DNA from: Chloroflexota bacterium
Lineage (GTDB): Bacteria; Chloroflexota; UBA11872
Assembly (NCBI GenBank): GCA_022825895.1
Contig: JAJDVX010000041.1
Coordinates: 1-64,000 of the forward strand
DNA: 64,000 nt
Reading direction: 5' to 3'
Made by a program: the position numbers and the translations under genes. Of the stretch, positions 2,266 to 8,460 are shown piece after piece. The notes under the pieces were generated by a model that worked only from the letters and a program-made list of their open reading frames with translations, was not told the origin of the DNA and did no database searches. Position 1 is the first letter of the stretch. Each line of letters begins with the position of its first letter.

Positions 2266-3129
2266 TCAAGGTGAGTCACTACCTTCGAGGGCGGCGCGGG
2301 CGGCTGTGAGCATGGTACGCGCCGGGGCGGGGCGGCCGGTCCACTGCTGGAGGCTGGCGGCGCCCTGCATGACGAGCATTTCGAGGCCGCCGAGGGTGGG
2401 GGCGCCGCACTGGTGGGCGGCGGCGAGGAGGGGGGTGAGGGCGGGGCGGTAGACGATGTCGTAGACGAAGAGGTTGGGGTGGAGCCGGCCGGGGGGGACG
2501 GGGCTTTCGGCGGGGGCGGGGCCGCCGGACATGCCGACGCTGGTGGTGTTGACGAGGAGTTGGGCGGCGGCGAGGCGTTGGGGGAGGCGGGTGTCGGTTA
2601 GCGCGCAGGAATCGATGGGGGTGTCGTTGGGCGGCTGGAGGTCTTGCACGAGTTGGTGGGCGCGGGCGGGGGTGCGGTTGGCGACGAGGATGCGGCGGGC
2701 GCCGGTGTCGAGGAGGGCGATGACGGCGGCGCGGGCGGCGCCGCCGGCGCCGAGGACGACGACGGATGCGCCTGTGGGATCGAAGTTGCCGAATTGGCGG
2801 AGGGCTTCGGAAAAGCCGTAGGGGTCGGTGTTGTCGCCGAGGAGGCGCGGGCCGTTGCGGATGACGGTGTTGACGGCGCCGGTGCGTTGGGCGGCGGGGG
2901 TGAGGCGGTCCACGGCGCGGAAGGCGGCGAGCTTGTGGGGGATGGTGACGTTGAGGCCGGCGAGGCGGCCGGCGCGGACGTCGTCAAAGCGGTCGTTTTC
3001 GGTGCCGGGGGGCGTGGGGAGGGCGGTGTAGGCGGCGTCGAGGCCGAGTTCAGCCAGGGCGGCCTGGTGCATGACGGGGGAGAGGGTGTGGCCGAGGGGC
3101 CAGCCGATGACGGCGTAGGCGGCGCTCAT
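2266..3129 (-). CDS. aroE: Shikimate dehydrogenase (NADP+)
   Basis: Reduces 3-dehydroshikimate to shikimate with NADPH. The 287-aa protein has the expected two-domain pattern: an N-terminal substrate domain with VIGWPLGHTLSP, NVTIPHK (catalytic Lys) and GAVNTV, followed by GDNTDPYGF and a Rossmann fold starting at LGAGGAARA. Near the C-terminus GGLEMLVMQGAASL matches the family's Q-containing motif. The ATG lies directly after the repeat-filled spacer. It is the third gene of the aro operon, downstream of aroA by 351 bp. Confidence 0.94.
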   Translation of the reverse strand: MSAAYAVIGWPLGHTLSPVMHQAALAELGLDAAYTALPTPPGTENDRFDDVRAGRLAGLNVTIPHKLAAFRAVDRLTPAAQRTGAVNTVIRNGPRLLGDNTDPYGFSEALRQFGNFDPTGASVVVLGAGGAARAAVIALLDTGARRILVANRTPARAHQLVQDLQPPNDTPIDSCALTDTRLPQRLAAAQLLVNTTSVGMSGGPAPAESPVPPGRLHPNLFVYDIVYRPALTPLLAAAHQCGAPTLGGLEMLVMQGAASLQQWTGRPAPARTMLTAARAALEGSDSP

Positions 3130-3480
3130 TGAGACCGTTGCCTAACCGCGGGAATGGGTGCCCGGAAGACCCTCACCCCGACCCGCTCCCACGGGAGACC
3201 TTTGCATAACCCAGGGTTGGTTGCGCGGAAGACCCCTCACCGATTTCGGCCGAAGACGGCCGAATCTGCCTCTCCCCTTGGAGAGGGGAAGAACGGCGGC
3301 TCCTCGAAGGGATTGACATCGCACACCCGTCAATCGGGTTACGCAAAGGTCTCCACGGGGAGAGGGAGCAAGAGGGGCCGCGCCTTTGAGGGTGCGGGGC
3401 GTTTTGCAAAGGTCTCCGGAGGGAGAGGGAGAAAGAGCGGTCCCGATTTCGAAGTCGAGGCCGGGTTTCGCGAGGGCCGC
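3130..3480. repeat. 351-bp repeat mosaic between aroA and aroE
   Basis: No gene is supported here. The spacer holds partial copies of the GTGCCCGGAAGACC and GTTGCGCGGAAGACC units (near 3155 and 3222), a CACCGATTTCGGCCGAAGAC module also seen at 120, and inverted CTCTCCCC/GGGGAG arms. A TTTGAGGGTGCGGGGCGTTT module near 3387 recurs with small changes near 8365. It splits aroA from aroE, whereas aroF/aroA and aroC/aroK overlap. Confidence 0.8.
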
Positions 3481-4785
3481 TCATTCGCAGAGGCGGGCGA
3501 GGTCGTCCCAGAAGGTGGGATAGGAGACGTCGACGGCCTGGGCGCCGCGGATCGTTACGGGGCCGGTGCCGCTGACGGCGGCGACGGCGGCGAGCATGGC
3601 GATGCGGTGATCGCCGGCGGCGTCGACGATTCCGCCGCCGGCGCGGGCGCCGCCGGCGATGGTGAATCCGTCGGATTCGGCCTCGAGCTCGCGGCCGAGG
3701 GCGGAGAGGGCGCGTTCGGTGATGTGGAGGCGGTCGGATTCCTTGACGCGGAGCTCGGCGGCGTCGGCGATGCGGGACTCGCCGTGGGCGCGGGTGGCGA
3801 GGAGGGCGAGGAGGGAGGCTTCGTCGATAAGGCGGGGGATGAGGTGCCCGCCGGCGTGGATGGCGCGGAGGTCTGAGGAGCGGGCGGTGACGGCGCCGGA
3901 GGGTTCGGGCTCGGTGGTTTCGAGGTGGGTTTCGATGTCGGCGCCCATGGTTTGGAGGGCCTCGAGGAGGCCGGTGCGGAGGGGGTTGAGGCCGACGTTG
4001 CGGATGGTGATTTCGGCGTCGGGGTGCAGGACGGCGGCGGCGATCCAGAAGGCGGCGGAGGAGATGTCGCCGGGGATGTCGAGATCAAGGGCCTGGAGGT
4101 CATTCGCGGGCTGGCAGCGAATCTCGCCGCCGGTGGTGCGGAGCACCGCGCCCTGGGCCCGGAGGATGCGTTCGGTGTGGTCGCGGGAGGGGGCGGGCTG
4201 GCGCAGGACGGTGGGGCCGTCGGCGCGCAGGGCGGCGAGCAGGATGGCGGACTTGACCTGGGCGCTGGCGACGGGGATGTCGAGTTCGGCGCCGCGAAGG
4301 TTGCCGGGGGCGATGGCCAGGGGAGCGTAGGCGCCGTGCGCCCGGCCGTCGATGCGCGCGCCGAGGGCGCGCAGGGGGCGCACGATGCGGTCCATGGGCC
4401 GGGAGCGCAGGGAGGCGTCGCCGGTGAGGACGGCGTGGAGGGGGCGGCCGGCGAGCAGGCCGCCGGCGAGGCGCATGGTGGTGCCGCTGTTGCCGCAGTC
4501 GAGGACGTCGGCGGGTTCGCGGAGGCCGTGGAGGCCCAGGCCGGTGACGCGCAGTTCATCGTCGTCCATGGAGACTTCGGCGCCGAGCGCCCGGACGAGA
4601 GCGGCGCTGGCGCGGGTGTCGGCGCCGAGGCCGGGATTGCGCAGGCGGGTCTGGCCGCCGGCTTGCGCGCCGAGCAACAGGCCCCGGTGGGTGATGGACT
4701 TGTCGCCGGGGACCGTGAGCTCGCCGCGCAGACGCCGCGCCGGCCGGACGACGCGGGCGCCGGGCGGGGCGGGAGCGTCGATCAC
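3481..4785 (-). CDS. aroA: 3-phosphoshikimate 1-carboxyvinyltransferase (EPSP synthase)
   Basis: Transfers the enolpyruvyl group of PEP to shikimate 3-phosphate. I start at the GTG at 4785, whose GTGA overlaps the aroF stop codon; this gives 434 aa, a normal length. Diagnostic stretches are [47 protein letters not shown] and ELRVKESDR. The GNSGTTMRL form, without the Pro of the E. coli-type GNAGTAMRP, resembles the Bacillus/CP4-like group. The 829-aa ORF in the track is this gene plus an out-of-frame read of aroF and should not be taken as a fusion. Confidence 0.95.
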
Positions 4786-5813
4786 GCGCCGACCGGGGCG
4801 CCGACGGGACGTCCGAGGGCGGCGGCCATGGGTTCCAGCTGGGCCATGAGGTCGCTGAAGTGGTTGAAGCTGAGGCTTTGCTGGCCGTCGATCAGGGCGG
4901 ACTCGGGCTCGGGATGGACCTCGACAATGATGCCGTCGGCGCCGGCGGCGACGGAGGCCAGGGCCATGGCATGGACCATGTACCAGTGGCCGGTGCCCTG
5001 CGAGGGGTCGACGACGATGGGCAGGTGGGTGCGGCGGCGCAGGAGGGGGATGGCGTTGAGGTCGAGGGTGAAGCGGGAGGAGGTTTCGAAGGTGCGGATG
5101 CCGCGCTCGCAGAGCATGACGTTGGGGTTGCCGGCGGCCATGATGTACTCGGCGCACATGAGCCACTCGTCGATGGTGTTGCCCATGCCGCGCTTGAGCA
5201 GGACGGGTTTCTCGCAGGCGCCGACCTCGCAGAGCAGCGGGTAGTTCTGGGCGTTGCGGGTGCCGACCTGCAGGACATCGGCGTAATCGACGACGAACTC
5301 GACCTGGCGTGGATCGAGGACCTCGGTGATGACGGGGAGGCCGGTGGCTTCGCGGGCTTCGGCCAGGAGTTGCAGGCCCGGGACGCCCATGCCCTGGAAG
5401 CTGTAGGGGGAGCTGCGCGGCTTGTAGGCGCCGCCGCGCAGCAGCTGGGCGCCGGCGGCGGCGACGTGTCGGGCGGTGGCGGCCATTTGTTCCGGGCTCT
5501 CGACGGTACAGGGGCCGGCCATGACGGTGACCGAGCCGTTGCCGATCTCGACGTCGCCGACCTGGATGACGGAGCGTTCGCGGCTGTCGGTGCGGGCGGC
5601 GAGCTTGAAGGGCTCGCTGATGGGGATGGTGGCCTCGACGTGGGGCATGCGCTCGAGCTGCTGGAGCAGCTCGGGCGGTCGGGTGCCGATGACGGCGATC
5701 ACGGTCTTGTGCTCGCCGGGCAGGACGCGGGTTTCCAGGCCCTCGGCATGGACGCGGGCTTCGACCGCGTCCAGGGCCGCCTGGCCGGCGCTGTTCTTCA
5801 TCACGATGATCAT
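4782..5813 (-). CDS. aroF: 3-deoxy-7-phosphoheptulonate synthase (DAHP synthase, AroF type)
   Basis: Condenses PEP with erythrose 4-phosphate, the committed step to aromatic compounds. The chosen ATG ([10 protein letters not shown], 343 aa) has AGGAG 8 nt upstream; the ORF-track start lies 17 codons earlier. Residues 1 to about 70 look like the small ferredoxin-like regulatory domain that mediates Tyr/Phe feedback in Thermotoga-type enzymes. The KDOP/DAHP barrel follows, with [37 protein letters not shown] and VDPSQGTGH. It is the first structural gene of the operon and lies behind a candidate attenuator leader. Confidence 0.95.
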
Positions 5814-5862
5814 CGGGCGGGCTCCTGCTGGGGACGGTGGCGGGGCGGGTGGTCGGAGAAAC

Positions 5863-5889
5863 AAAAAAGCAGAGGCGGGGGCCTCTGCT
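5863..5889 (-). terminator. Intrinsic terminator in the aroF leader (attenuator)
   Basis: On the minus strand, perfect arms GCAGAGGC and GCCTCTGC enclose CCCC and are followed by TTTTTTG. An A-T pair extends the stem to 9 bp. It lies about 50 nt upstream of aroF and downstream of a short leader ORF, so it would stop the operon's transcript unless bypassed. Confidence 0.85.
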
Positions 5890-5900
5890 GCCGGCGTCTG

Positions 5901-5932
5901 CGGGTCGTTGGTTTACATAAGCGTACGACCCG
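5901..5932 (-). promoter_or_regulatory. Leader hairpin spanning the leader-peptide stop codon
   Basis: Arms CGGGTCGT (5932-5925) and ACGACCCG (5908-5901) are perfectly complementary over 8 bp, with a 16-nt loop containing the leader ORF's TAA. The adjacent GCAGACGC (5901-5894) matches 7 of 8 pairs with the 3' arm of the terminator. AGACGCC (5899-5893) is perfectly complementary to GGCGTCT inside the leader ORF. Mutually exclusive structures of this kind are the hallmark of attenuation. The folding is inferred by eye. Confidence 0.55.
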
Positions 5933-5993
5933 GCTGCGCCGGCGCTGGAAACGCGAAATAGACGCCGCAAGCTGGGGCGTGACCGTGGGTCAT
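5913..5993 (-). CDS. Putative leader peptide of the aro operon (26 aa, Tyr/Phe cluster)
   Basis: A short ATG-to-TAA ORF of 26 codons lies just upstream of the terminator hairpin and is too short for the ORF track. Codons 12-15 encode Tyr-Phe-Ala-Phe, the end products of the pathway, which is the composition expected of an attenuator peptide. Ribosome stalling there would cover GGCGTCT and free AGACGCC for antitermination. No strong Shine-Dalgarno sequence is visible. The role is inferred from layout and codon content. Confidence 0.55.
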   Translation of the reverse strand: MTHGHAPACGVYFAFPAPAQPGRTLM

Positions 5994-6022
5994 GCGTACT
6001 CGTAGCCTAAGAGTTCGCGGAG

Positions 6023-6051
6023 AGTGTGCGTGAGGTTGGGGCGGGCGTCAA
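6023..6051 (-). promoter_or_regulatory. Candidate promoter of the aro operon
   Basis: TTGACG (6051-6046) and CACACT (6028-6023) are separated by 17 bp on the minus strand. The -35 box is good and the -10 box weak (3 of 6). The predicted start would lie about 20 nt upstream of the leader ORF. Confidence 0.4.
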
Positions 6052-6123
6052 TAGGATACGGTTAACTAAAGTCGAGAAGATAGGGCGAGCGAGGCGCGGT
6101 TCGGGTTGCGATCGTTGACGCGC

Positions 6124-7503
6124 ATGGTCAGCAGGGGCGGCGCGCCGCTGCGTCCGGATTCCGAGGCCGCGCTGGTGCAGATGTGGCTGGATGCCGCGTC
6201 GCGGGTCGGTCCCATGCGCGATTCGCTGGGGCGTTCGATCGAGGTGGTGTACCCGGGCCGCCGCACGGGGCTGGCGGGACCGGACCTGCGGGACGCGATC
6301 GTCAGTATTGACGGCGGTCCGGTACGGCGGGTCGACGTGGAAGTCCACCTGCACGAGGCGTCATGGGAGCGGCACGGGCACGACGCGGACGCGCGCTACG
6401 CCGGCGATCTGTTGCACCTGGTGTGGACGGCGGCGCGCGGCGGTTCCGGACGTCCCCCGTACATCCGGGCGCCGCGGGCGCTGGCCGGCGGGCGGGCGCG
6501 AGGAGGACGGCAATCGAATACGGATGGCTGGCCGTGTTGGAACGCAGGGGAGCGGCCGGAGGCCGGAGCCGAGGTGCGAGGGGCGATTCGAGCGGAGGGC
6601 GCGAGGCAGCACGCGGAGCGGGCGGCGGCGCTGGAGAGCGACATCGAGGCGCTGGGCGCGGACCAGTCGCTGTACCGGGCGATGATGCGGGCGCTGGGGT
6701 ACAGCGCGAACACGCGGCAGTTCGAGGCGGTGGCCGAGGCGGCGCCGATCGAGCTGCTGGGCGCGCTGGGCGGGCCGACGCTGGGTGAGCGGCGGGTGCG
6801 CGTGGAGGCGGAGTTGCTGGGGGCGGCGGGGTTGCTGCCGAGCCAGCGAGGGCAACACGCTGAACATCCGCATGAGGTGATGCTCGAGGAAGCCTGGGCG
6901 GGCACGGCGCCGCGGGCGGCGCCGGCGGTGGAGGACTGGACGCTGGCGGCGGTGCGACCGCACAACCGGCCGGCGCGGCGGCTGGCGGGGGCGGCCAGGC
7001 TGCTGAGCACGGCGCCGCTGGCGCGGCGTTCGCTTTCGGAGCGCGTGGCGGGGCAGGTGCTGGCCGCGAACGCCGCTGGGCGGGGACGAGACCTGGCGGA
7101 GTGGTTCGAGGTGCGGGTCGGGCCGGAGGACTACTGGGCGCGGCACCTGGACGTGGGGCGGCCGGCGGCGCGGCCGCTGCCGGCGCTGATCGGGCGCGGG
7201 CGCAGCCAGGAGGTGCTGGTGAACGCGGTGCTGCCGTTCACGGCGGCGCTGGGCGGCTGGTCGAAGCGGCCGGAGTTGGTGGAGGCGGCGGGCGCGGCGC
7301 TGGCCGACCTGGGAGCGGTGGGCTGGAACCGGCACACGCGCTACATGGCCGACACGCTGCGGCTGGAGCGGCGGGGGCTGGGGTCGGCTCTGGCGCAGCA
7401 GGGGCTGTTGCGGATCTACCGCCGCTGGTGCCGGGCGAAGCAGTGCGGCGAATGCCCCGCGGCGGCCGCGGCGATTCCAGCGGCTGCGGTCGTCGGCGAA
7501 TAG
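6124..7503 (+). CDS. DUF2851 family protein
   Basis: Matches the DUF2851 family, whose function is not established. The recognisable part is an N-terminal block ending VDVEVHLHEASW followed by HGHDADARYAGDLLHLVW, and a C-terminal Cys-containing stretch RRWCRAKQCGECP typical of the family. I use the ATG at 6124 (459 aa); a TTG at 6106 in the same frame is possible. The gene diverges from the aro operon across about 110 bp. The conserved E-x-H and HGH residues suggest a nuclease-like or metal site, but that is speculation. A long repeat block follows. Confidence 0.75.
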   Translation: MVSRGGAPLRPDSEAALVQMWLDAASRVGPMRDSLGRSIEVVYPGRRTGLAGPDLRDAIVSIDGGPVRRVDVEVHLHEASWERHGHDADARYAGDLLHLVWTAARGGSGRPPYIRAPRALAGGRARGGRQSNTDGWPCWNAGERPEAGAEVRGAIRAEGARQHAERAAALESDIEALGADQSLYRAMMRALGYSANTRQFEAVAEAAPIELLGALGGPTLGERRVRVEAELLGAAGLLPSQRGQHAEHPHEVMLEEAWAGTAPRAAPAVEDWTLAAVRPHNRPARRLAGAARLLSTAPLARRSLSERVAGQVLAANAAGRGRDLAEWFEVRVGPEDYWARHLDVGRPAARPLPALIGRGRSQEVLVNAVLPFTAALGGWSKRPELVEAAGAALADLGAVGWNRHTRYMADTLRLERRGLGSALAQQGLLRIYRRWCRAKQCGECPAAAAAIPAAAVVGE

Positions 7504-8460
7504 CGCGGCGCCGGGGTCGCCGGTAGCGACCTTTGCGCGACCCGGGGTTGGTTGCGCGGAAGACCCTCTCCCCAGCCCTCTCCCACGGGGAGAGGGAGTA
7601 AGAATGGACGCAGATTGCCCAGGGAAGGTCTCCGCGGAATCCGTCGTTGGGTGCCCGGAAGACCCTCAGCCCGACCCTGTGCCCCGGGAGAGACCGTTGC
7701 GTCACTCGGGCGTGGTTGCGCGGAAGACCCTCACCCCAACCCTCTCCCGCGGGGAGAGGGAGGAAGAGCGGCCGCAGCTTTGAGGACGCCGGGGGGTTAC
7801 ACGAGCCTCAGAAGAAGAAGGGCGGGCGTGGCGGCGCGGGTTGCTGGTGACGTGGCGAGGTTGCTGGGGCCGGCAGCCACCCTCACCCCGACCCTCTCCC
7901 TCAAGGGAGAGGGAGGAAGCGGCGCTCCGCCGCTGATAGACGGCCCGGGTCCTGAGGCTGGGCTGGGATTCGAGGGGCGCGTCGACAAGAAGACGGCTCA
8001 CCCCCGGATCGAGTCCGGGGCAGGTTCCGGCTTTCTCCCACGGCGAGACGGAGGAAGAGCGGCCGCAGCTTCGAGGACGTTGGGGGTTTACACGAGTCTC
8101 AGGAGAAGAAGGGCGGGCGTGGCGGCGCGGGTTGCTGGTGACGTGGCGAGGCTGCTCGGGCCGGCAGCCACCCTCACCCCGACCCTCTCCCTCAAGGGAG
8201 AGGGAGGAAGAGGCGCTCCGCCGCTGATAGACGGCCCGGGTCCTGAGGCTGGGCTGGGATTCGAGAGGCGCGTCGACAAGAAGACGGCTCACCCCCCGGA
8301 TCGAGTCCGGGGCAGGCTCCGGCTTTCTCCCACGGGAGAGGGAGCAAGAGACGCCCCATACTTGAGGGCGCGGGGCGTTTTGCACGGGTCGCCGGAAGCG
8401 AGACGGTTGCGAGGCCCGGGTATGGGTGGGCGCCGAGATGATACTGACTGGAACTAAGTA
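7504..8460. repeat. Repeat-dense spacer of about 950 bp
   Basis: This stretch holds copies of the GCGCGGAAGACCCTC unit near 7553, 7651 and 7715, two copies of CCCTCACCCCGACCCTCTCC with CTCTCCC/GGGAGAG arms (near 7881 and 8171), and two palindromes containing CCGGATCGAGTCCGG (8001-8024 and 8292-8316). The 301-aa ORF at 7552-8457 and its shadows are repeat translations and I reject them as genes. Confidence 0.85.
7762..8345. repeat. Tandem duplication, about 291-bp unit, two copies
   Basis: The sequence from GCCGCAGCTT at 7771 recurs from 8062 with the same order of modules: TTACACGAG, AGAAGAAGGGCGGGCGTGGC, the CTCTCCC palindrome, a GCTGATAGACGGCCCGGGTC stretch, and the CCGGATCGAGTCCGG palindrome. 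The offset is about 291 bp and the two copies differ at only a few positions, so the duplication looks recent. Confidence 0.85.

Follow-up and report, generated by a model that had tools for sequence, protein, structure and literature searches.

Whether the aro operon of a Chloroflexota bacterium is controlled by a leader RNA, and which amino acids such an RNA would sense, is the question raised by the region upstream of aroF in the 64,000-nucleotide stretch of DNA analysed here (the window). The initial annotation proposed a Tyr/Phe-responsive transcription attenuator ahead of the operon. Conservation, covariation and codon retargeting give strong support to its identity as an attenuator, to the sensing of Tyr and Phe and to a role in controlling the aro operon.

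The aro operon and its leader

Thermotoga-type DAHP synthases with a ferredoxin-like domain are feedback-inhibited by Tyr and Phe. The window aroF codes for an enzyme of this type (Table 1), whose closest PDB structures include the DAHP synthases 4GRS and 1RZM/3PG9. A dispersed repeat, GGAAGACCCTCACCCCAACCCTCTCCCACGGGGAGAGGGAG, is found in the gaps of the operon and nearby (3-82, 231-310, 336-415, 2182-2261, 3150-3229, 7544-7623 and 7708-7787), alongside a 263-nt duplication at 7743/8034.

Table 1. Coordinates of the leader element and of the downstream aro genes in the window
Feature	Position	Strand	Remarks
Whole element	5811-6051	minus	upstream of aroF
-35-like box TTGACG	6046-6051	minus	read by eye; position kept in relatives
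-10-like box CACACT	6023-6028	minus	17 nt from the -35 box; read by eye
Leader ORF, 26 codons + TAA, MTHGHAPACGVYFAFPAPAQPGRTLM	5913-5993	minus	ATG at 5993, TAA to 5913; sequence; frame and C-terminal Tyr/Phe motif conserved
Control codons TAT TTC GCG TTT (Tyr12-Phe13-Ala14-Phe15)	5949-5960	minus	sequence
P1 5' arm GCCGGCGCAGCCGGGTCGT	5925-5943	minus	within leader ORF; sequence and covariation
P1 3' arm ACGACCCGCAGACGCCGGC	5890-5908	minus	3' of leader stop; sequence and covariation
Intrinsic terminator stem-loop AGCAGAGGC-CCCC-GCCTCTGCT	5868-5889	minus	9 bp; adjoins P1 with zero gap; sequence conserved
Terminator T6 run	5863-5868	minus	sequence
Shine-Dalgarno AGGAG of aroF	5822-5826	minus	upstream of aroF ATG at 5813
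aroF, DAHP synthase, Thermotoga type	4782-5813	minus	ferredoxin-like and DAHP synthase domains
aroA, EPSP synthase	3481-4785	minus	operon gene 2; start approximate
aroE, shikimate dehydrogenase	2266-3129	minus	
aroC, chorismate synthase	943-2097	minus	
Shikimate kinase, aroK-like	416-946	minus	best family match below its curated cut-off

The leader ORF with its Tyr-Phe-Ala-Phe motif, the terminator with its T6 run and the Shine-Dalgarno sequence of aroF are all present as first described. The 8-bp hairpin reported over the leader stop codon (CGGGTCGT/ACGACCCG) also exists, but it forms just the top of a more extended hairpin, P1, closed by GCCGGCG/CGCCGGC. The last control codon, TTT (5951-5949), is separated from P1 by a gap of 5 nt, and the stop codon sits in the P1 loop. 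A scan of positions 5000-7000 retrieved the terminator, on the minus strand, as the sole terminator-like site; it is an intrinsic terminator placed between the leader ORF and the first gene.

The -10-like box is conserved within the window's own family and TATA-like in other families (e.g. TATAGT in L097); a consensus scan with a threshold of 4 of 6 per box did not call this putative promoter. The leader ATG has no strong Shine-Dalgarno sequence. The frame is secure but the exact start is less so, since in a congener (L005) ATA replaces the ATG and an ATG farther upstream opens that same frame. In L097, L098 and L101, upstream of aroF, the leader ATG lies only ~7-12 nt past the -10-like box, so some of these leaders may be translated from a nearly leaderless mRNA.

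Conservation within the order

Leader, P1 and terminator were found in every member of the order with a complete aroF upstream region. The aroF leader peptides vary but keep their end (VYFAFPAPAQPGR, RYTFAFTRPARLG, AAYYTFTVPARPAG, CSYFAFIRPVYPVG, DRYFMFTEPACPAS, CVYFAFTGPALPAG). The 3.5-Mb source genome contains a single match to the terminator pattern (reversed control, 0), and genomes of the order have at most one, before aroF, with the exception of genome G020, which has a second copy before tyrS; these counts are limited by assembly gaps, since in three genomes of the genus aroF had no match whatsoever. The G020 tyrS leader (from L118) reads MNRNQIIAKSKIAGHGCAYIGPARVALPLS up to its stop codon and has a Tyr codon where the last Phe codon usually is. 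It is the only such case in the order, and in the window's own family none of the scanned loci had the element before tyrS or trpS. In one congener (L006/L015), the terminator stem upstream of aroF carries two mismatches (GCAGAGG..CCACCGC), which may weaken attenuation.

Distribution in the class and the phylum

The element was traced beyond the order with a first covariance model and then a second one. In another family of the class it was found in 9/9 genomes, followed by aroF, by the gene for an AroG-type DAHP synthase or by tyrS, while the search of two further families of the class returned no element. With the second model, an element was found in 130 of 400 Chloroflexota genomes, belonging to many families, at E<=0.01, the E-values deriving from a short calibration. 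About 75 of these loci were read individually. Each copy comprises a leader ORF with Tyr/Phe(/Trp) codons at its end, P1, a stop codon within P1 and a terminator of the form GCAGAGG/CCTCTGC. A pattern search (GCAGAGGN2-9CCTCTGCN0-2TTT) in 37 genomes gave matches that all coincide with model-placed elements, those on the opposite strand being the same palindromic stems and the one at L352 being of doubtful status, and the reversed control gave 0.

Weak model matches at L189, L191-L193, L229, L267, L269-L273, L276, L353, L356 and L357 were judged false or unclear by sequence. At L352 (G364 contig 53), a related terminator and a possible Thr-rich leader precede a glutamate-synthase-like ORF. When a further model, R3, built from an alignment that includes some terminator-only rows, was run on 74 aroF loci, only Chloroflexota loci scored at E<=1e-6. 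Thirty genomes, mostly of other phyla, gave by model score only weak and mostly short matches.

Control codons follow the downstream gene

The leader frame and its Tyr/Phe/Trp codons are conserved before aroF. In the other family of the class, aroF leaders end in ..WYYYFSRPV-stop and ..FSFYFFSTPV-stop and the AroG-type leader in ..WYRYAYFRRPV-stop; elsewhere in the phylum, aroF leaders include WFAYYFTPPALLVG.., SFYYWFSPPA-stop, FFFYRYPA-stop, WYYYWYSPPA-stop and AWWWRCPPA-stop. Leaders of tyrS carry Tyr codons, both in that family (..SYSYRIPV-stop, ..DYPYLIPV-stop) and across the phylum (YCYYYRSAL.., ..CAYIGPA), the pheS leader carries Phe (SHHVHFSPPAL..) and the asd leaders carry Thr (TTTGTTATRCAG.., MTTTPAG..). 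In one pheS leader (L350), the Phe codon lies farther upstream than the usual position. The control codons thus fit the gene that follows (Tyr for tyrS, Phe for pheS, Thr for asd, Tyr/Phe/Trp for aroF). Since copies have been retargeted in this gene-wise manner, there is strong evidence, drawn from sequence comparison, that these codons would be what the leaders sense.

The position of the codons is constrained as well: in 87 of 101 leaders a gap of 3-6 nt separates the last aromatic codon from P1. Among the last eight codons of these 101 leaders, the mean number of aromatic codons is 4.0 in the best frame and 1.0 in the second-best, a contrast that is partly built in because the frame was picked by aromatic content. 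In 100 of the 101 leaders the stop codon falls within P1 (44 in the 5' arm, 56 in the loop), and the lone exception, L209, is a frame-picking error. The last Phe control codon (5951-5949 in the window, and its counterparts in relatives) is nearly always the rare TTT in these GC-rich genomes: TTT is used 68 times and TTC once as last control codon, to be compared with 91 TTC and 8 TTT in ten genes of the window.

A sequence-specific arrest peptide of the TnaC kind, sensing the free amino acid through the nascent chain, would be compatible with the frequent Pro residues found just past the last aromatic codon and close to the stop. However, the aromatic residues differ greatly in how many there are and in what order they come (WYYYF, FSFYFF, YTFAF, AWWW), a different gene brings a different residue type (Tyr, Phe, Thr) and the Pro codons coincide with the P1 stem, which makes this explanation highly improbable.

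Covariation and predicted folding of P1 and the terminator

All seven modelled P1 pairs show changes on both sides in alignment A3. This alignment has 96 distinct rows, ~20 of them minus-strand matches to the terminator only. For the whole structure, 148 both-side cells were counted against 32.3 in shuffles, and 0/500 shuffles reached 148. Pairing drops to 38-62% in slid controls. A3 was fitted to the model and hence leans towards the structure. In 30 aligned copies 99.8% of cells are paired. Divergent P1 5' arms (GCCGGCG, CCCGGTGTG, TCCAGCATG, CGGCACGACGG, GTCTCTGGTG) each pair with their own 3' arm. The terminator stem GCAGAGG/CCTCTGC is near-invariant throughout the phylum, even though nothing in a stem as such prevents covariation; changed stems occur in L022, L029 and L030 (AGCAGAAAG.., AGCAATCCG..). 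The comparison of aroF leaders among related Chloroflexota therefore bears out the annotation in the leader frame, the Tyr/Phe codons, P1 with its covariation and the terminator, all of which are kept. Short ORFs and terminators are common enough for an ordinary terminator to lie beside a chance small ORF, but such a coincidence is contradicted by the phylum-wide conservation, the covariation, the matching of codons to genes and the genome-unique terminator sequence, and its probability is negligible.

Ribosome states were simulated by masking RNA during folding. The mean probability of P1 is 0.94 with a stalled ribosome and 0.0 with a ribosome at the stop codon, so that in the simulation a ribosome at the stop alters the structure that a stalled one leaves. 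In the window, P1 and the terminator abut and share no bases, the change between states is ~0.01 bp, and the terminator has an equilibrium probability near 1 whichever ribosome state is simulated.

These results bear on the competing structures proposed initially, in which GGCGTCT pairs with AGACGCC and GCAGACGC with the terminator 3' arm, as in a classical four-segment attenuator of the trp type. The window sequence allows both pairings, but they are not conserved: L002/L003 have GGCACCT in place of GGCGTCT and an unaltered AGACGCC, L010 and L017 contain neither segment, and the pairings are lost in the other families read. Folding in stalled and unstalled states revealed no competing structure in the window, where the terminator remained near 1 throughout, and a search of the window and its near relatives for a pairing partner of the terminator arms in the stalled state found none. 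A trp-type switch through these segments is consequently very unlikely. The strand shared by antiterminator and terminator that defines that type is absent from the window and present to a varying degree in 26 of 100 copies.

In those 26 of 100 elements, terminator pairs are regained in the simulation on completion of the leader (they are lost in 2), which is the direction expected if P1 is an antiterminator. The largest regains were 10 bp for tyrS L225, 6 bp for aroF L214, 4 bp for tyrS L223 and 3 bp for asd L216. In pyrBI-type control, tight coupling of ribosome and polymerase occludes the terminator. By analogy, P1 could be a pause hairpin keeping ribosome and polymerase in step, with the stalled ribosome itself occluding the terminator and P1 playing no antiterminator role. 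The abutment of P1 and terminator in the window and the tightly kept distances between control codon and P1 and between P1 and terminator agree with such an arrangement, which suits copies lacking base overlap. P1 nevertheless takes terminator bases in 26 of 100 copies, strongly in tyrS L223 and L225 and in asd L216, and a pure pause hairpin is a possible but rather unlikely explanation.

Proposed mechanism

The favoured reading, to which a probability of roughly 0.8 may be given, is that the element is a ribosome-mediated transcription attenuator of aroF-aroA-aroE-aroC-aroK in which P1 acts as the antitermination hairpin. The computation supports its anatomy, its conservation, its covariation, the matching of codons to genes and the location of the stop inside P1. 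From these features we infer stalling and antitermination, which would proceed as follows. Transcription would start near 6016 and a ribosome would translate the leader. Upon shortage of Phe- or Tyr-tRNA, the ribosome would stall at TAT TTC GCG TTT and P1 would remain folded at its front edge, since only 5 nt lie between the last control codon and P1. P1 and the parked ribosome would together prevent formation of the terminator directly after P1, and the polymerase would read into aroF. When amino acids are plentiful, the ribosome would reach the stop inside P1 and melt the hairpin; the terminator would then form freely and transcription would end near 5863.

Since the window terminator is near 1 in all simulated states, antitermination by P1 and the stalled ribosome must there differ from a choice between competing pairings. 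Because the two hairpins only abut, we infer the blocking step in the window copy: a P1 pinned to a ribosome stalled 5 nt away and a terminator pinned to the polymerase probably could not coexist, through edge competition or steric clash. More tentatively, the copies may form an undescribed, Chloroflexota-wide family of minimal attenuator RNAs. In many of its members, devoid of exclusive pairing, a ribosome at the foot of P1 and a polymerase at the foot of the terminator could not both fit, and a change of control codons alone would retarget the element among Tyr/Phe/Trp, Tyr, Phe and Thr genes; this generalisation is doubtful.

Comparison with known leaders and significance

The pheA, pheST and trp leaders of Escherichia coli operate by alternative pairing of four segments. 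The window element shares with them the control codons, the terminator and a leader stop that decides the structure, but not the four-segment pairing, and it has no Rfam match. It is treated as a form of ribosome-mediated attenuation and not as a trp-type four-segment attenuator, since exclusive pairing was tested and is absent in the window copy. Searches of Rfam at gathering and relaxed thresholds returned nothing relevant, the amino-acid leader families being unmatched. No description in Chloroflexota was found in the open-access literature, and an earlier mention elsewhere is possible; both results are consistent with the annotators' remark that no example was described in this lineage.

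Several known systems resemble the element in part. In Corynebacterium glutamicum, the aroR attenuator precedes aroF (Neshat et al. 2014, as described in PMC11802643); Phe limitation is reported to cause stalling and more transcription, and Tyr availability to be without effect. Both aroR and the present element place a leader peptide (Phe-Tyr-Phe in aroR) before a DAHP synthase operon. aroR belongs to another phylum, and the likeness is one of function and gene. Since Tyr had no effect on aroR, the question of Phe versus Tyr is a testable one in the Chloroflexota element. The uORFC-13-1 motif, found before aroF in Acholeplasma and environmental sequences only, with no Chloroflexota members mentioned (PMC8632094), likewise has a Phe uORF directly upstream of a terminator and an extra paired element, a likeness at the level of gene, Phe uORF and adjacent terminator. 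The closest measured precedent for side-by-side antiterminator and terminator hairpins is the ilvBNC attenuator of C. glutamicum, in which the two adjacent hairpins overlap by three bases and a stalled ribosome favours the antiterminator (PMC11857589). It differs in responding to branched-chain amino acids and in having an additional anti-antiterminator hairpin (PMC11857589).

The T-box leader (RF00230) also senses amino-acid supply in the same order, before trpS in G020, but unlike the present element it binds uncharged tRNA directly. RF00230 had no match in the window or its aro leader, while the positive example L147 did match. G020 has this T-box before trpS (L147:2402-2672, minus) and a leader-peptide element for tyrS, two control systems side by side.

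In the literature found, the RNA-based amino-acid control reported for Chloroflexota consists of T-boxes, to which the element adds a second, translation-dependent system. The covariance model can be used to annotate leaders of aroF, tyrS, pheS and asd. The element offers dozens of natural variants of one design, and their natural retargeting lends itself directly to testing the way in which control codons are read. The abutting hairpins of the window copy pose the question of whether a stalled ribosome blocks a terminator by its position alone.
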